Program-made: the position numbers and the translations under genes
Assembly (NCBI RefSeq): GCF_900103955.1
Contig: NZ_FNIL01000015.1
Span: 1-64,000, forward strand
Origin: Alkalicoccus daliensis
Lineage (GTDB): Bacteria > Bacillota > Bacilli > Bacillales > Salisediminibacteriaceae
DNA: 64,000 bases
Direction: 5' to 3'
In this document: positions 27,601-38,820 of the stretch, one piece after another
Layout of the letters: every line of letters begins with the position of its first letter
How positions within the stretch are numbered: position 1 is the stretch's first letter
The notes under the pieces: generated by a model
Told to the model about the DNA's origin: nothing
What the model saw: the letters and a program-made list of their open reading frames with translations, nothing else
The model's database searches: none

Positions 27601-27712
27601 TTAGAAACATCACAAATGATACCAATTAAAAAAAACTATGATTATTTAGATGATACATACGGAGATTTAAATTATTTATTTAATAATAAAGCTCTATTAA
27701 TGCTCGTTGTTG

Positions 27713-28150
27713 ATAAGAGAAAATTTCGCTGCAACTCGGCCGGCTTGCCGTGGACGAGCTCCTCAGCTTCCTCGCTGCGCTGCGGGGTCTTCCCAGCTCG
27801 TTCTTCCACAGGCGTCCGCCGGTTTCCGCTCCGTTCTTCTCTTTGAAAAACAAAAGAAAGAGATTGTTTTTATAACAAGTTTTTCTATCAATAAAATGAA
27901 GAGAAGGCGATTTTCAAGACGCCTGCGGAAAAAGAAAGCGTGAAGATCAAAGGTTCGTCTCGCACTGCAGACGAACTCGTAAAGCAGGGGGCAGCCAGCC
28001 GGGCTCTCGAATCTAAGCAAGACGGTATTTGTTTTGCTTGGATTGGCTGCGCGGAACCCTGCTTATTTCGAAGGGATAGCTGAAGGATTTCTCCGCGGCA
28101 AGCGAAGAAAAAAGAGCCGCAGGCATACCTTTCTTACATCAACATCAGCC
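27713..28150. repeat. Dispersed non-coding repeat, copy B (longest)
   Basis: It shares the 39- and 43-base identical blocks with copy A (1044-1256), with about 120 extra bases between them. The last 25 bases (GAAGAAAAAAGAGCCGCAGG at 28104) also match copy C at 38.8 kb. It contains an internal inverted pair: TTCCACAGGCGTC near 27805 faces GACGCCTGCGGAA near 27918. G+C-rich stretches contrast with the surrounding A+T-rich DNA. Short open frames across it are not conserved. Confidence 0.75.
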
Positions 28151-28343
28151 TTTAATAGAGCCAAAAATAAAAATCCAAGGCTTTAAAAACGGAAGACTGA
28201 CTTTTCACAGAGACGGAGATATAGAAATGATAGTGTATATTCCTGACTCATACACATTGAAGCTTTAGAGCGCTTCTATACGCTATGCTGCAGCATAAAT
28301 CAGTTATGTATTAACGAAAGATAGTTTTGGTAGATTGGAATTA
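28151..28343. other. Intergenic, no feature recognised
   Basis: About 190 bases between repeat copy B and the minus-strand small membrane protein gene. Nothing recognisable was seen. Confidence 0.3.
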
Positions 28344-31316: not shown

Positions 31317-31438
31317 TCTGTATAGCTGTTTCCATTTAACTCCTTAGTCAATGACATAGCTGCCGCGCCACGAACCAGCACAATTATCCTTTGATTATAA
31401 AAATTTTAAAAATAAAAAATGAAGGGTGAGATGAGTGT

Positions 31439-31939
31439 ATGACAAAATATATTAAAATTAGTTTGGCTCAGCGAGGTGTTTCCTGTATTGCTAGACTTTT
31501 GGAAGAAGAGGCTCCAAGAACTTGTGAAGCAGTCTGGGAAGCTCTTCCACAAAGCGGTCAAGTTTATCATGCGAAGTACGCTCATAACGAAATTTACAAT
31601 ATGGTACCTCCTTTTCCTGAAAAAGAGATCGGATTGGAAAACTCTACGGTAACTCCAATTCCTGGGGACGTTTGTTATTTTTACTTTCAATCAGGTCAAT
31701 TGGATAAAGCTTTTAAAGAAGAGAAAAACATTTCTCATCTACCAGGAGTAGTAGATTTAGCTGTTTTTTATGGAAGAAACAATTTACTGTTGAATGGAGA
31801 TATTGGCTGGGTACCGGGAAATGTATTCGCAACGATTGAAGAAAACCTTCCGGCTATGGCAGAAGCATGTAACGATGTATGGTTTGCGGGAGCGAAGGGG
31901 GAACAGTTAATTTATGAACGATATGAATATAATAAGTAG
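31439..31939 (+). CDS. DUF3830-family (cyclophilin-like fold) protein
   Basis: This 166-residue protein contains the DUF3830 pattern: the start KYIKISLAQRGVSCIARLLEEEAPRTCEAVWEALP, then HAKYAHNEIYNMVPPFP, PGDVCYFYF, and VDLAVFYGRNNLLLNGDIGWVPGNVFATI. The family has a cyclophilin-like barrel related to DUF3237/DUF369-type proteins and is often near hydantoinase or amidohydrolase genes, none of which is present here. Function is unknown. The GTGAGATGAG region is a modest ribosome site; the start at 31439 is likely. Confidence 0.75.
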   Translation: MTKYIKISLAQRGVSCIARLLEEEAPRTCEAVWEALPQSGQVYHAKYAHNEIYNMVPPFPEKEIGLENSTVTPIPGDVCYFYFQSGQLDKAFKEEKNISHLPGVVDLAVFYGRNNLLLNGDIGWVPGNVFATIEENLPAMAEACNDVWFAGAKGEQLIYERYEYNK

Positions 31940-32235
31940 CACAGGTACGCATACAATAATAAATCCGTAAAAAAGGGGGCCTCACTAGTAATTGATGTGC
32001 GAAATAAGGAAAAAAATAGTGGGGGACAAATTAAGAATCCTGTTCTGTGCAACAGCAATCATTAACCGTCCTGGCATGGTATAGCTTTACTGAAAACTGT
32101 CTACAAATAAGTTCCTAATAATTCTTGAACTCTTTTTCGATGACCGTCCATATGAAAAATTTCTCTATTTCTTTTTCACCCAGTCACCTTTCACTCGAAA
32201 CTTATTAATATATAGCCCAATACGTTCATTAAAGT
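31940..32235. other. Intergenic upstream of the defence cassette
   Basis: About 300 bases without a supported gene. The next 170 bases hold the palindromic array listed separately. Confidence 0.3.
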
Positions 32236-32252
32236 ATGTGTAATTATGCGAA

Positions 32253-32345
32253 CGTTCGAAAAGTAAAAATAAACTTTTTTGAACTTATAATTTTCGAAAA
32301 ATTATACCGAGATTTGCCGTTCGAGAAAGTGTACTTTTTCGAACG
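32253..32345. repeat. Nested palindromes with repeated TTCGA motifs ahead of SIR2-HerA
   Basis: CGTTCGAAAAGTA (32253-32265) is inverted as TACTTTTTCGAACG (32332-32345) with one extra T. Between them lies a second palindrome centred on TTTTCGAAAA (32291-32300), flanked by ATAA and TTAT, and a further TTCGAGAAAG at 32320. Four TTCGA-type motifs fall within about 95 bases. This looks like an operator array or structured leader about 100-180 bases before the SIR2 start. Confidence 0.6.
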
Positions 32346-32436: not shown

Positions 32437-33567
32437 ATGATAGAAGAAAGAATGAGAAAAAAGATGTTTTATTGGAGAGGGAAAGAGGACAAACTAAGCC
32501 ATTTAGAATTCGATCAACAAATTCAAGAAATTTCAAAGTTCATTCAACAACAATGTAAAAGTGAAAATTTACATTTTTTGATAGGATCAGGTTGCTCTCT
32601 CCCTCATGTGCCATTAATGAGCAAAACGTTTGATAATATAAAATCAAATACTGAAATTAGTTCATGTCTTGGTGATTATGCAGAAAGTAACGATATAGAA
32701 GGATATTTAAATTGGTTAAAGAATGCAATGACATTTTTACAAAGTGGAGATGAATACAACAAATACGCAAAAGCTTTTAAAAAAACAAAGGAAAGCTTGT
32801 TATTGACAATCCCTAAATCTTATACTGGCTTATCAGAAGCAGAAAATATTAAACTCATCACAACCTCCGATAATTATAAGAAATTTTATAATAGCATATT
32901 GAGTCATAGAGAATACAAAGACTTTACTCCTATAAACATATTCACTACAAATTATGATTTGTATAATGAAATTGCAATGGAGCAAAATGGTATTCATTAT
33001 GCCAATGGTTTTAGAGGGTTAATTAATAGAACATTCGATCCTCAGAACTATAGAATGAGACTAGTTGATGATGAGAATAGGTACAAAGAGAAATGGACAA
33101 CAGTTAAGAGATTTATAAAATTACATAAAATCCATGGATCAATAGATTGGAATTACGATACTAATTTAAAGACTATCGTTCAATCATCTAACTCTTTGTC
33201 AAAAGAAGGAAATGAGAACGTAATGATCTATCCTACAATTAACAAACACTTAGAAACTCAACAATCACCTTATTCAGAGCTTATGAGAGAATTTACAATC
33301 AACTTACAAAAAAGAGATTCAACTTTAATAGTGATAGGATATGGATTTCCGGATTCACATATTAATCAATTAATATCTCAAGCTTTAAACAATGACGACT
33401 TTAATCTCATAGTGTTTGGCGACAAGACAGAACAAAATGCCAAAGAGTTTTATAATGAGAACAAGGACAGAAATAATTTTCATTTTATAGAAGGAAATTA
33501 TAATAACAATAAAGATGGCCACCATTTTAATAATGTTATTAAATTTTTAGGTGGGTTTAAATTATGA
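32437..33567 (+). CDS. SIR2-family NADase, effector of a SIR2-HerA defence cassette
   Basis: This 376-residue protein is of the SIR2_2 type. FLIGSGCSLP (47-56) is the dinucleotide-binding loop, FTTNYDLYNE (169-178) contains Asn172, and KIHGSIDWNY (231-240) contains the catalytic-type His233. VIGYGFPDSHINQLI (299-313) closes the fold. Known proteins of this type hydrolyse NAD+ during phage infection and cause abortive infection. The next gene, a HerA ATPase, overlaps by 4 bases (ATGA), which fixes the pair as SIR2-HerA. The strong site GAAGGAGG precedes ATG 32437. A+T-rich codon use (AAA, AAT, ATA, AGA) stands out from the neighbours and suggests transfer. Confidence 0.9.
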   Translation: MIEERMRKKMFYWRGKEDKLSHLEFDQQIQEISKFIQQQCKSENLHFLIGSGCSLPHVPLMSKTFDNIKSNTEISSCLGDYAESNDIEGYLNWLKNAMTFLQSGDEYNKYAKAFKKTKESLLLTIPKSYTGLSEAENIKLITTSDNYKKFYNSILSHREYKDFTPINIFTTNYDLYNEIAMEQNGIHYANGFRGLINRTFDPQNYRMRLVDDENRYKEKWTTVKRFIKLHKIHGSIDWNYDTNLKTIVQSSNSLSKEGNENVMIYPTINKHLETQQSPYSELMREFTINLQKRDSTLIVIGYGFPDSHINQLISQALNNDDFNLIVFGDKTEQNAKEFYNENKDRNNFHFIEGNYNNNKDGHHFNNVIKFLGGFKL

Positions 33568-35372
33568 GAAATCAAAACAGTATAGGAGTAATTAATAAAG
33601 TATTTCCAAATAAAATAGTAATGGAAATTTCTAATTCTAATAAACTTATTCATAATTATAAAGGCGATCTATATACTTTTGCCGGAATAAATAATTTCAT
33701 AACCATCTATCAATCTAATTCTAATAAATTTATTTACCAAGTAATTGGTTTATATGAACAAGAAAACCCGATTGTGGATGATGAAATGTCTAAATTTAAA
33801 GAGAAGCTATACTTTGAAGCAGTTCCTCTAGGTGAAATCGAAAATCAAACGTTTAATTTCGGTTTATCAAAATTCCCTATGGTAGGAGATTCAGTCTTTT
33901 TAACACTAATTGAAGATGTCAATTCAATCTTAAGATTAAATGATAAAGAGAGTTATTCAATAACTTTAGGGAAAATGGCTTCTTTTGACAGTTATTATCC
34001 CCAATTAAATATAGACAGTTTGTTTTCTCATCATACAAGTGTTTTAGGTAATACAGGCTCAGGTAAGTCAACAACTGCTAGAAAGCTGATAGCTGAAGTT
34101 ATCAATAAACTTAGTACAAATACTGAGGTAAATAATGCTAATTTTATAATATTCGATGTGCACGATGAGTATGAGTCTATTCCTCTTGACTATTTAAACA
34201 GAATAGATGTTGAAAAAGAATTATCTATACCTATAGAATCATTGAACAAAGAAGACTGGATTAATTTAGTTCAACCTTCACCTGGGGTGCAACTCCCAGT
34301 CTTAATGAATGGTTTAAGACTAGGAAATTTAATGAGTTCAAGTTCAAATTTCAAAGATTGGATAAATGCTTATTGTGCCTTATTTATGTATGAAAATGTA
34401 CATACTGATGTAGTAGGTAAAAGAGCCAAAATAATAAAATTGTTAGAAGCTGTTAAAGACAATGGTATTAATCAGCAACTACAAAATTATAATTCGCAAT
34501 ATGCGAATTTTAGAAGTGGAGATGAAGAGTCATTTAAAAGAGTTATCAAAGAATTTATAAAGAAACTTTCAGGCTATGAGTATGAAGAATGTAAATCAAT
34601 TATTGAAGAATCGATAGGAGAAGCTGATTGCACGGTAACAAGTTTATCTTATCTCGAAACAGGAATCGATATGGTGCTTCTATTTGAAGAGATTAGAGGT
34701 AACGATCAAGCTAGGTCTCATTGCTCTACTCTTATGACGCGTATTGAGAACTTGATTTCCACTTACAAAAACACCTTATTTGATAATAGTCCGCACAAAT
34801 TAAAAACATATTCTAATGTTATGAAATTTGAAAAAGGTTTTACAGTATTTAAAATTTCAAGCTTAGATGATACTGATTTGACCTTTTTCACAAGTTATTT
34901 TTTAAGAATATTATATTCTAAGCAAAAGCAAATTCGAAAAAGTGATAAAAATATAAATAATATGTACCACATTGTATTAGATGAGGCACATAAATATATA
35001 CACGAAAGAAATTTTGAAGATTCCATCTATTCGTTGAGGATGTTTGAACAAATTGCTAAAGAAGGAAGAAAGTTCGGGATATTTATGATTCTTGTTAGTC
35101 AAAGACCAGGTGAACTTTCAAAAACAGTTTTATCACAATGTAATAACTTTATTTTGCATCGTATAAGAAATAATATCGATTTAGATCAAATGAGAAAGAG
35201 TATTCCATATCTTACCGAATCTCAACTTACAAGAATATCTTTTCTCAGAACAGGAAGTGCTTTATTAGTAGGAGAAGCATTTTCTATTCCTATGGAAATA
35301 ATTATTGATGGTAACGACCAGGGGAGCTCTTCATCAACTTTACCTCCTTCTAAGGCATGGAAAATGAAATAA
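33564..35372 (+). CDS. HerA-like hexameric ATPase/translocase of a SIR2-HerA defence cassette
   Basis: The protein has 602 residues. An N-terminal HAS-barrel-like region (about 1-135) precedes the FtsK/HerA-type RecA core. Walker A GNTGSGKST is at 162-170, FDVHDEYESIP follows (acidic motif), Walker B HIVLDEAHKYI has Asp473-Glu474, and KEGRKFGIFMILVSQRPGELSKTVLSQCNNFILHRI carries the sensor and arginine-finger-like segment. In characterised SIR2-HerA systems this ATPase assembles with SIR2 and controls its NADase activity. No NurA nuclease gene is adjacent, so a DNA-end-processing HerA-NurA role is unlikely. Base composition is as A+T-rich as the SIR2 gene. Confidence 0.9.
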   Translation: MRNQNSIGVINKVFPNKIVMEISNSNKLIHNYKGDLYTFAGINNFITIYQSNSNKFIYQVIGLYEQENPIVDDEMSKFKEKLYFEAVPLGEIENQTFNFGLSKFPMVGDSVFLTLIEDVNSILRLNDKESYSITLGKMASFDSYYPQLNIDSLFSHHTSVLGNTGSGKSTTARKLIAEVINKLSTNTEVNNANFIIFDVHDEYESIPLDYLNRIDVEKELSIPIESLNKEDWINLVQPSPGVQLPVLMNGLRLGNLMSSSSNFKDWINAYCALFMYENVHTDVVGKRAKIIKLLEAVKDNGINQQLQNYNSQYANFRSGDEESFKRVIKEFIKKLSGYEYEECKSIIEESIGEADCTVTSLSYLETGIDMVLLFEEIRGNDQARSHCSTLMTRIENLISTYKNTLFDNSPHKLKTYSNVMKFEKGFTVFKISSLDDTDLTFFTSYFLRILYSKQKQIRKSDKNINNMYHIVLDEAHKYIHERNFEDSIYSLRMFEQIAKEGRKFGIFMILVSQRPGELSKTVLSQCNNFILHRIRNNIDLDQMRKSIPYLTESQLTRISFLRTGSALLVGEAFSIPMEIIIDGNDQGSSSSTLPPSKAWKMK

Positions 35373-35537: not shown

Positions 35538-36329
35538 TTAAAAGAACTCATATAACCCCTTTACAAAATAATTGTAGTCCCATTCATTCATAATCCTTGC
35601 TCCGTAGCCTTTAAAGAAAAGCTCTTTGTCATTTTCAGTTTCAAAGGCCTTCGGTTTGGGACGTACCGCAAGCGAAACATCATACCGCGGGTCGCCATAA
35701 GATCCGCCACCCCAGTCAATTATTCCAGCTACTTTCCCATGATTGACTATTACATTGTCAATCGTAAAATCACCGTGGATTAATACCTGTTTTATTTCAG
35801 CGGGTTTTATCACCTTTATATGTTGCAACAATTCTGCATCTCCATCCACAGTGGAAGTCTTTAGGTTAATATCTGCTTGAGCCAGCATTTCGTCCAGCCA
35901 TGATTTTTCGTATATTAATTCACTTGGACATGGAGTTGAATGGACTTGAGCGAGTATTTTTCCGAAATTAAAGATAATTTCCTGCCTTTTCTCCTCAGCT
36001 ACTTCATTGGATAAAGCTGTTCTCACTGTTTCTCCCTCTATCAACTCGAATAACGCCCACGATTGATTGTTGGTTTCTTGTTCAACGAATTGATGAACGG
36101 TTGGAATCGGTAGGTTAGTAGCGGCTAAATGATTGAGGACGGACACTTCTCTGTTTAATGAAGTGTTATTTGGCATTCCTTTCGTTCTTTTAAGTACAAA
36201 AAAGCCGTTTTTACATTCAATTACCCCTACGTTCGAAGTATAACCTTGCCGCGGAAATGTAATGGACTTGATTGTGCCGACAAAGTCTTTTATTTCAGTT
36301 GGAATTTCATATATTTGTATGGGTTGCAA
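35538..36329 (-). CDS. Aminoglycoside phosphotransferase-family kinase
   Basis: This 263-residue APH/choline-kinase-fold protein starts at TTG 36329, seven bases after GAGGTG. The N-lobe shows VGVIECKNGFFVLKRTKG with the ATP Lys. LFELIEGETV is the hinge. VLIHGDFTIDNVIVN is the catalytic loop (Asp and Asn), and VAGIIDWGGGSYGDPRYDVSLAV is the metal motif. Members phosphorylate aminoglycosides, macrolides, homoserine, choline or fructosamine; the substrate cannot be deduced. Clinical resistance should not be inferred from the fold alone. Confidence 0.87.
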   Translation of the reverse strand: MQPIQIYEIPTEIKDFVGTIKSITFPRQGYTSNVGVIECKNGFFVLKRTKGMPNNTSLNREVSVLNHLAATNLPIPTVHQFVEQETNNQSWALFELIEGETVRTALSNEVAEEKRQEIIFNFGKILAQVHSTPCPSELIYEKSWLDEMLAQADINLKTSTVDGDAELLQHIKVIKPAEIKQVLIHGDFTIDNVIVNHGKVAGIIDWGGGSYGDPRYDVSLAVRPKPKAFETENDKELFFKGYGARIMNEWDYNYFVKGLYEFF

Positions 36330-36580
36330 TTAGATACACCTCAAGAAGTTAGAATGAATTATTAAGATTAATTCGATTTTGTTAATTGAAAATCCTTTTC
36401 GCGACTTGAATAAAAAAGGCGGCGAATTGTGCTTCAAAAAGTAGCTTCTCGCATTTAAAGTTTGGAAAAGTGAACATTTAAGAACGATCAATAATTTTCC
36501 TTAAATGATTATAAATAATTAACCTTATTGTAAAATAAATAATGGTATTCAATTACATTTCACAAGTTATCAGAACCATT
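36330..36580. other. Intergenic region, no gene
   Basis: About 250 A+T-rich bases upstream of the kinase gene; nothing beyond its probable promoter region. Confidence 0.3.
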
Positions 36581-36624: not shown

Positions 36625-36896
36625 TTATTTTTAAAAAGCGACATATTTTTATTAATAGGCTAATCAATCATTTACTTAAAATTGCGGTAGAGAAGATAGG
36701 TTATATCTGGATCGTTCATTTAAAACGAAAAATCTTGTAAAATAAGCGGTTGGTGTTACTAAAATAAATAAGACCACAGCAGCTCGGATTTTTATTTTAT
36801 AATGCGCATTTCTCTACTCGGCCGGCAGTCATTTTAACAAAGTTTATCTTAATGACGAAAAACCTGCTGGCCAGCTGTACAGATCACGAAACCTCT
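36625..36896. other. Intergenic region, no gene
   Basis: About 270 bases without a supported gene or recognised signal, ahead of the 3' end of the phospholipase D gene. Confidence 0.3.
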
Positions 36897-38354
36897 CTAA
36901 TATGTGCTGAACCTGGTAACTTTCTGCAGGGTGTAAAGAAAGTATTTAAACGCAGGGTAGGAGGGGGCATACTCCTCATAGGCTGCTGTAAAAATGGCAT
37001 CCTCATTATTCCAGATGCGGTGAAAATAATCATCCACTTCTGTCATAATTTCCGTATCTGCCGGAGCGGTGACGCTGATATTGTTTTCCAGATTAAAATC
37101 ATCCAGGTTCCGTTTCGTAAAGTTTGCAGCCCCTGCAATAACATTTCCTACTTCTCCGCGGTCCGCATACAAAATTTTGGAGTGATACTGTTCGTCCTGG
37201 GTATCATACCAGCGGACGTTCATATTTTCTCCCCCGCGCCTTTTCAGTTCACTGGCTACGGGCAGGTTGGGAATACCAATTTTGTCCTGGCCGAATGCAT
37301 CCTGATTAGGATCCAAAATAATATTTACCGTGACGCCACGAGAAGCAGCGGTTAAAAGGCTTTCAATAATATTCCTGTCGGACAAGTAAAACAGGCCGCA
37401 CCAGATCGTATCGCCTTCTTCCGCAGCAGCAATGACTTTACGTAGTGCCTGCTTCGTTTTCCCTTCTGTAATCATCTGTGCCTGCACCGGCCTGTCTTCT
37501 TCCCCGCTCGATACGATCCATTCATCCAGCTCCTCTTCGGTGGGAAAACGGCTGAGATCACCATCGGAAAAGGCGGCTACTGCTTTTTCAGATTCCACGA
37601 TGTCCCGCAGCGTTTCTCCCTGCACCCTTATTCCAATATTGGAATGATGAGCACTTGCATCATGCGCATTGGCAGACGTAATAATGCCGGCATTTTCACT
37701 CACGATGGTTTTTCGGTGGTTTGCTTTTGTATTCGCGAGCTTTAAGTAAGAGCGGACTGTTGCATCGGGAGCGTCTTCTCCAAACACGTTCGGGAGCCAG
37801 CCGCTGCCGCTCTGGCCAAACCACTGCAGGCCGATCCGCCAGAATGCGGTATAAAAATAATTGGAATCTCTTAATCGGGTTAAATCTGTATAAATGACTT
37901 CTGCTCCTGCTGCTTCCAGAGGATCTATATGCGCAGACCTGTGAGAAAAATAAGTGGTATTGATCGGGTCGGTAATAAATACTACTTTCATCTCCGGATT
38001 TTCTTCCAGCCTTGCTTCAATACGGTCGGTAAATTCCCGGCTCAGCTCCGGAAAACTGCCGTCTTCTGTCGAAAAGTCATTCACTAAAAACATATCTATG
38101 ATTAAAAAGTGCTCCGCTTCGTCGATTAAAGCAAACACTTCTTCAAAAATTTCATGTTCATAAACTTCTTCGTTTTCTTCATTCAGATAAGTAAGGTCAT
38201 AGAGAAATGATATTTCTTCTTCTGCAATCATCCGGGCCTCCCCAAGGTAGCTTACGTTTTCCGGAAGAGGTTTCAGCTGATGATAGGCAATCACACCAAG
38301 ATACAATACGCCAAAAGCAGCGGCAGCGATCCACAGCTTTTTTTTCATAAACAA
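36897..38354 (-). CDS. Phospholipase D-family membrane-anchored protein (cardiolipin synthase-like)
   Basis: The 485-residue protein has an uncleaved-looking N-terminal anchor (about 7-24) and an extracytoplasmic or membrane-surface domain with two HKD motifs. The first is ANHRKTIVSENAG (His213, Lys215). The second is QYHSKILYADRGEVGNVIAGAANFT. GSTN-like asparagines follow each. PLD-family enzymes transfer phosphatidyl groups via a His intermediate; cardiolipin synthases have this architecture but usually with two membrane helices. The single anchor and the long acidic insertions make a phospholipase/transphosphatidylase of unknown substrate equally possible. GGAGCAG lies upstream of the start, and M3 is an alternative. 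Confidence 0.82.
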   Translation of the reverse strand: MFMKKKLWIAAAAFGVLYLGVIAYHQLKPLPENVSYLGEARMIAEEEISFLYDLTYLNEENEEVYEHEIFEEVFALIDEAEHFLIIDMFLVNDFSTEDGSFPELSREFTDRIEARLEENPEMKVVFITDPINTTYFSHRSAHIDPLEAAGAEVIYTDLTRLRDSNYFYTAFWRIGLQWFGQSGSGWLPNVFGEDAPDATVRSYLKLANTKANHRKTIVSENAGIITSANAHDASAHHSNIGIRVQGETLRDIVESEKAVAAFSDGDLSRFPTEEELDEWIVSSGEEDRPVQAQMITEGKTKQALRKVIAAAEEGDTIWCGLFYLSDRNIIESLLTAASRGVTVNIILDPNQDAFGQDKIGIPNLPVASELKRRGGENMNVRWYDTQDEQYHSKILYADRGEVGNVIAGAANFTKRNLDDFNLENNISVTAPADTEIMTEVDDYFHRIWNNEDAIFTAAYEEYAPSYPAFKYFLYTLQKVTRFSTY

Positions 38355-38754
38355 CTGCTCCTTTCGTTCAGGTGCTGTTAATTTAACGGATGTTTCAACG
38401 TTTGAAATGGAGCTTTCATAAATGATCCGCAGGCAAGGGACATAAACGACAACCAGTGAATTTTATCCTGAATAAAGAGAATTACAGGTATTATATTATG
38501 ATCGATGATTATCCATGTATTTGAAAAATACGTATAGGGAATGAAAAGGCAGTGTCTGGCGTTTTAAATCTTCGCCTTTGTAGAGGAAATTTTCGGCTCG
38601 AAGCACACCGGGCTCCTCTTCCAGCTTTCCTGAGACACAAGCGCCTCGCATAACCTCTTGCTACTGCGAAATGTCTGTAAATAGGAGGAAGGAATAATGC
38701 TGTCTTTTCCCTCGTGAAAACTGCAGTATTGTTTTTTCAAGCGTGCTCTCTTCC
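38355..38754. other. Intergenic region, no gene
   Basis: About 400 bases with no supported coding potential, leading into degenerate repeat copy C. Confidence 0.3.
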
Positions 38755-38820
38755 AGCATGGGAGAACTGAAAGCCTTCTCCGCGGGAAGTGAAGAAAAAA
38801 GAGCCGCAGGCTTCCTAAAA
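38755..38820. repeat. Dispersed non-coding repeat, copy C (degenerate, partial)
   Basis: CTTCTCCGCGGGAAGTGAAG and AAAAAAGAGCCGCAGGC (38775-38811) match the right end of copy B (28090-28125) with few changes, and its 5' side aligns weakly. Only the right-hand part of the repeat is preserved. Confidence 0.6.

Follow-up and report, generated by a model that had tools for sequence, protein, structure and literature searches.

An orphan res site of predicted Tn3 type ahead of a SIR2-HerA defence operon in Alkalicoccus daliensis

A 64,000-nucleotide stretch of Alkalicoccus daliensis DNA (RefSeq assembly GCF_900103955.1, contig NZ_FNIL01000015.1, positions 1 to 64,000), hereafter called the window, carries at 32437-35372 an operon encoding a SIR2-like protein and a HerA-type ATPase. 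Judged by its sequence, this pair is a member of an already known defence kind, SIR2-HerA (Nezha). A three-part res site (III-II-I) occupies 32223-32345, or 123 base pairs (bp), and ends 91 bases ahead of the SIR2 start codon; it was missed by the first-pass annotation of this DNA, and no other feature says as much about the locus. We consider it likely that the pair is an anti-phage system acquired horizontally as a "res site plus operon" unit on a plasmid or a Tn3-type element, and that the resolvase has since been lost. In such a system, a HerA hexamer would carry SIR2 NADase subunits, and upon infection the complex would destroy nicotinamide adenine dinucleotide (NAD+), with phage growth halted and the cell sacrificed. 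The operon would most likely have arrived next to a resolvase module, of Tn3 type or plasmid-borne, and res may be all that remains of that module; the III-II-I array of that element's serine resolvase would thereby persist upstream of the operon, site I being nearest to it.

The SIR2-like protein, a putative NADase effector of 376 amino acids, is encoded at 32437..33567 on the plus strand, followed on the same strand by the HerA/DUF87 ATPase of 602 amino acids at 33564..35372. Both open reading frames (ORFs) are intact and overlap in an ATGA. The SIR2 translation contains FLIGSGCSLP at residue 47, TTNYD at 170, and KIHGS at 231, and that of HerA contains the Walker A motif GNTGSGKST at 162 and HIVLDEAH at 469. 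From the placement of TTNYD and KIHGS, N172 and H233 are likely the catalytic residues of SIR2. Alanine changes at N168 and H227 abolish immunity in the Vibrio cholerae homologue, as described in passages of PMC11559045, and the two residue pairs have near-equal spacing, a correspondence drawn by motif rather than by alignment. Both PADLOC models were matched near full length, at residues 8-369 of 376 for SIR2 (2.1e-93) and 4-584 of 602 for HerA (1.6e-98), and the Pfam scores for SIR2_2 (50.5 bits) and DUF87 (80.5 bits) each exceeded the respective cut-off. The nearest solved structures in the PDB were 8yhx for SIR2 (8e-68) and 8yho, which is HerA alone, for HerA (3e-116); the best solved-structure matches of SIR2 and of HerA are chains of one complex, 8yhx. 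For this family, a complex of 12 SIR2 and 6 HerA subunits was reported to hydrolyze NAD+, and homologues were reported to lose NAD+ upon infection and to protect from phage (the relevant passages of PMC11559045). Defence by NAD+ depletion would hence be the most likely mode for the window pair, as judged from its family. The GC content is 28.9% for SIR2 and 29.5% for HerA versus 42.1% for the window; it is 38.5% and 39.1% for the direct neighbours (DUF3830 and APH genes) and 45.7% and 45.3% further out (PLDc and hydrolase genes). The A+T-rich tract is wider than the pair, extending over about 28-37 kb. The overlapping genes, the SIR2 motifs, the intact Walker A/B of HerA, the SIR2-HerA type, and the compositional contrast with flanking genes, all of which had been described in the first-pass annotation, were recovered here.

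The res site is composed of three inverted repeats read on the plus strand, namely sub-site III (CGTTCATTAAAGTATGTGTAATTATGCGAACG; 32223..32254), sub-site II (32253..32285), which has 2 bases in common with III, and the 28-bp crossover sub-site I (32318..32345), a dyad with a central GT dinucleotide. The three sub-sites, their fixed spacing, and this dinucleotide point to a Tn3-type res. Comparisons were made with 8 genomes of the genus (6 of them near-complete), 35 of the family, and 397 of the order, for which G and L numbers denote genomes and fetched loci, respectively. When the sequence ahead of SIR2 was searched against the genus, it gave a 148-nucleotide match in G002 (73% identity) and shorter ones in G003 and G001. 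The III-II-I array adjoins serine resolvase genes in L035 (of G003), L049, and L050. The III/II junction RACGTTC precedes site I by 67 (±1) bases in 20 of 33 loci, the window included; for this count L099 (equal to L098) and the reverse-orientation entry of the palindromic G404 site were dropped, and L053, which has other letters, was entered as a miss. Site I is the sole copy at up to 3 mismatches in its own genome, and a site-I-like pattern gave one match in the window but none in 100 shuffles. At up to 1 mismatch, it was detected in 7 of the 35 family genomes, i.e., once in each of the 6 near-complete genomes among the 8 of the genus, and in 1 of the 27 others. The order-wide search found it in 18 of 397 genomes, while a reversed-pattern control gave 0, and all 23 places outside the genus were fetched. 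The exact site I was not found in virus contigs. Site-I palindromes standing alone between chromosomal genes, with neither the III/II junction nor a resolvase match, were observed in L085-L089, L091-L093, L095, and L096.

No resolvase remnant was found in the window and no cognate resolvase in its own genome, whose single PF00239 match is of another kind, a yneB-like gene beside lexA and transketolase. Since the resolvase gene is lost, the window res would be recombinable only by a cognate resolvase coming in trans. The repeats directly precede a Resolvase-family serine resolvase gene (PF00239, 1.4e-24) in G003 (L035), and two Planococcus plasmids have the intact order resolvase ("recombinase family protein")-III-II-I-cargo. 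The best site-I-like match was located just upstream of the resolvase in all eight further plasmid loci fetched by resolvase similarity, with 0-5 mismatches (at most 3 in six of them); in one of these, L129, an annotated Tn3-family transposase follows the resolvase. The Paenibacillus plasmid pJ45TS6 (NZ_LC597664) has a resolvase, an inverted-repeat array, and SIR2-HerA in the same layout. Pieces of a cognate resolvase are present further left in G004 (L037). A Priestia megaterium plasmid encodes another annotated SIR2 family protein (L130:9082-9606) approximately 4 kb from its resolvase, on the flank that faces away from site I.

The SIR2-HerA pair is likely to have been acquired horizontally, because it is A+T-rich (29% versus 42% GC) and one of the 8 genus genomes contains a strong HerA match. 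HerA matches were obtained in two of these genomes, the window's own and a distant one in G001 (26-30% identity). At E ≤ 1e-25, SIR2 was found in 9 of the 397 order genomes, comprising its own, five at 53-60% identity, and three at 32-35%. The named relatives are Salibacterium aidingense, Paenibacillus wynnii, and Sporosarcina luteola. Plasmid matches to SIR2 at E ≤ 1e-20 amounted to 70 records, 54 of them from Listeria (about 36% identity among the matches listed), and the best was a Paenibacillus plasmid at 52%. On the left, 31393-31948 has a single-stretch counterpart each in G002 (89% identity) and G004 (85%); on the right, the gene at 36892-38408 has counterparts in G004 (90%) and G003 (83%). 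The two G004 counterparts lie on separate contigs, and the gene order of the window was not shared in the fetched surroundings. The probable transfer proposed in the first-pass annotation is therefore supported by the sparse distribution and low GC content, the pair being far from conserved in all relatives with normal composition, and its "patchwork" description of the surroundings held as far as tested. Members of a dispersed repeat family, 74-93% alike, were observed at 1046-1281, 27651-28160, and 38760-38811 of the window, where they flank the patchwork region on both sides, and also in L032, L039, and L114. At the Salibacterium aidingense locus (L005, a 7.5-kb contig), SIR2-HerA is 60% identical and lies between an IstB-like piece, recognized by eye, and a reverse transcriptase fused to a trypsin-like domain. 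The HerA homologue of L111 (G148) stops after 65 residues and is followed by a 398-residue reverse-strand ORF, so that it looks interrupted, and a large serine recombinase gene (474 residues, PF00239) lies 1.8-3.2 kb upstream of the pair in L112 (G050).

One such res site is present in each of the six near-complete genus genomes, and what lies beyond its site I differs. The window has SIR2-HerA there. A type II operon of the cyclic-oligonucleotide-based anti-phage signaling system (CBASS), composed of a SAVED-PDDEXK nuclease effector, a cyclase, E1-E2, and JAB, starts 95 bases past site I in G007 (L047:9535-14464). G004 (L037:5255-15622) has GajA-GajB (Gabija) beyond site I, AbiEi/AbiEii-like genes on the other side, and a PDC-S02 gene further left, and by these matches is a small defence island. 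On the minus strand of G002 (L032:6139-8778), a SLATT-like membrane protein (0.0074, a weak match) precedes a protein of the candidate family PDC-S39/DUF4209 (1.7e-35); this two-gene unit is regarded as a candidate defence system. G003 (L035:115-5238) has an ArsR-family regulator and a heavy-metal P-type ATPase beyond site I; its intact resolvase and res are adjoined by a HicB-family gene and by a piece of a CBASS effector, the C-terminal SAVED part. Beyond site I, G001 has only a 75-residue ORF without a PADLOC match. A defence operon, one being a candidate, thus lies past site I and reads away from it in 4 of 6 genus loci, starting 91, 95, 155, and 129 bases off in the window, G007, G004, and G002, respectively. 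What can be stated robustly is that res lies within a few kilobases of defence genes in 5 of 6 genus genomes. The distances suggest that the operons favour the site-I side. Defence genes also occur on the opposite side in 2 of 6 loci (AbiE in G004 and the SAVED piece in G003; right versus left, Fisher p 0.28), and a side preference within the genus is thus not established.

Among 17 res or resolvase loci from outside the genus, one (pJ45TS6) has defence genes beyond site I, or two if a weak match to PDC-S66 (8e-9) is counted. A general rule of defence beyond site I has no support outside the genus. For each locus one or two nearest genes were PADLOC-scanned, except that only the nearest was scanned for L078 and pJ45TS6 was assigned by homology; the ten lone site-I places were kept outside the count. 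The genus proportion differs from these 17 loci with a Fisher p of 0.008, or 0.0075 after removal of two loci found through SIR2; it becomes 0.028 with the weak match counted and 0.048 if the G002 candidate is also not counted as defence, for a genus-versus-outside grouping that was chosen after the data had been seen. Eight further plasmids, three of them near-copies from Priestia megaterium, had no annotated defence gene on the site-I side, as far as their incomplete annotation goes; one of the eight has an EVE-domain gene there.

These counts bear on the strongest alternative, to which we give a substantial chance, though one short of even. It holds that the window pair is an ordinary SIR2-HerA system, that res is the fossil of some mobile element, perhaps from another arrival, and that its adjacency to defence genes in this genus is a small-number coincidence in accessory DNA. 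The low count outside the genus, the eight plasmids without an annotated defence gene there, and the defence genes on the opposite side within the genus all favour such a coincidence. So does the persistence of broken or partial resolvases, which in L084 and L094 lie beside a retained site and in L083 next to a lone site I. The four genus loci in which a defence operon starts within 91-155 bases past site I, at p values from 0.0075 to 0.048, argue against it.

Several further results weigh against the favoured reading of a defence pair acquired as a "res site plus operon" unit. None of the seven other close SIR2-HerA loci (L006, L007, L109, which equals L005, and L110-L113) has a site I, the best candidates having 7-8 mismatches, or such a resolvase adjoining. 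For the window pair and for the CBASS locus of G007, the flanking DNA yielded gene-level matches only, and an empty site was found for neither. No convincing pair of Tn3 terminal repeats was detected around the cassette, which is weak evidence, as the same scan also failed on the Tn3-like L129. Tn3 resolvase disfavours sites on separate DNA molecules about thousandfold or more, according to sections of PMC9943657, and the arrival step would therefore need another route or a rare event. The pair also stays below the NCBIfam equivalog cut-offs, with 119 versus 500 bits for SIR2_antiphage and 180 versus 850 and 146 versus 800 bits for HerA_antiphage; such scores place it in a subfamily other than the named ones. 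An exchange at the res site, in particular, would have to be read against small numbers, no enrichment in the loci examined outside the genus, and no empty site. A dedicated link between this res and SIR2-HerA was also considered and rejected, as the seven other distinct close pairs lack the site and pJ45TS6 alone has a res-like array, in other letters.

A bolder version of the proposed history is doubtful in our view. Orphan chromosomal res sites might serve as docking points at which resolvases brought by visiting plasmids or transposons swap SIR2-HerA, CBASS, Gabija, and other systems beyond site I, with one slot per genome, much as has been suggested for the toxin-antitoxin pairs of Tn3 transposons. 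It is improbable that the inverted repeats are instead an operator or promoter region regulating SIR2-HerA and unrelated to recombination. Tn3 res sites do contain promoters repressed by resolvase, as stated in parts of PMC7157771, and the window repeats end close ahead of a start codon. This reading is set back because the same array precedes resolvase genes and unrelated genes; furthermore, it is absent from the seven other SIR2-HerA loci, has three sub-sites at fixed spacing, and showed no promoter excess over shuffles. Transposons of the Tn5053 family insert preferentially beside res sites, and the operon might have arrived on such an element that was since lost, which we consider very improbable. 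These "res site hunters" exist in print, as a title cited in PMC8649781, whereas the ORF lists for the surroundings of the pair and of the other genus loci showed no transposase of Tn7/Tn5053 type, and the four operons differ, none having transposon ends. Finally, a chromosomal SIR2/HerA module for repair or metabolism is the least probable reading. HerA-type ATPases also act in repair, and the NCBIfam HerA repair models gave 104 and 88 bits, but the PADLOC defence model scored far higher (329 bits), and the pair is sparse and SIR2-partnered as in the solved complexes.

A possible far end of the cassette was located at 36459..36486 on the plus strand, where an uncertain, degenerate second site-I-like sequence differs at 4 of 22 specified bases. 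It is the only match in the window at up to 5 mismatches besides the res site itself, and it sits just ahead of position 36563, from which similarity to G004 resumes. The expectation is 0.0032 such matches (up to 4 mismatches) per 64 kb and strand, an estimate based on one occurrence in 20 Mb of simulated sequence. An APH-family phosphotransferase gene (35538..36329, minus strand, 263 amino acids; Pfam PF01636, 1.1e-27), whose protein has no PADLOC match at 1e-5, is perhaps a passenger between the two site-I copies. If the second site I is real, SIR2, HerA, and APH might form a unit of approximately 4.1 kb. In the stretches fetched for the other five genus loci, no second copy was found at up to 5 mismatches, and this far end is accordingly tentative. 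No transposase was noticed among the ORFs of at least 70 residues for 26-42 kb, a list read by eye.

Recombinases often adjoin anti-phage genes, with a function described as unknown (excerpts of PMC12529663). PMC8649781, on Tn7-like cargo, treats resolvases in transposition and resolvase acting in trans, and its passages on these subjects contain no defence operons at res. A published link of res sites to anti-phage operons was not found in titles and abstract openings, a search in which most subscription journals and bioRxiv were not covered and which is hence weak evidence of novelty. What is new is the setting, i.e., an orphan res site whose kind adjoins other defence operons in sister species, a variant of a known arrangement. 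This gives a concrete and testable cis-element, a res site of approximately 120 bp ahead of four different, partly candidate, anti-phage operons. Should more genomes bear out the link, it would constitute a site-specific route for swapping defence operons and would extend the rule that toxin-antitoxin pairs abut res site I. An orphan site I could then be used as a DNA bait for unknown defence operons, such as the SLATT-like/DUF4209 pair of G002. The occurrence of orphan res before differing defence systems hints at how defences move among bacteria; the numbers are small, and a wider count is deserved.

Compared with the solved SIR2-HerA (Nezha) pair of 8yhx/8yho, the window has in common the overlapping SIR2 and HerA operon, TTNYD, K-I/L-HGS, and Walker A/B, whereas it belongs to a subfamily apart from the named equivalogs of NCBIfam and its activity is predicted. 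The layout on pJ45TS6 is alike and its SIR2 is 52% identical, but its resolvase is intact, and its repeat letters are of the GTCTATAA type, with 7 mismatches to the window site I, which is no match. The Tn3 res recognized by TnpR-family resolvases likewise has three inverted-repeat sub-sites, each bound by a dimer, within 114 bp (PMC9943657, in part) rather than the 123 bp observed here. Site III faces the resolvase gene and site I is distal in the intact relatives, as in the portions of PMC9943657 and PMC7157771 that describe this order, whereas the window site is an orphan, with none of a cognate resolvase, transposase, or terminal repeats seen around it. A further parallel is given by Tn3 transposons with TnpR, in which toxin-antitoxin pairs were located just beyond site I "in every single case" analyzed and were proposed to be exchanged through site-I recombination (passages of PMC7157771). 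In both cases a module lies directly past site I and reads away from it; here, the modules are whole anti-phage operons, located on chromosomes and without a transposon.

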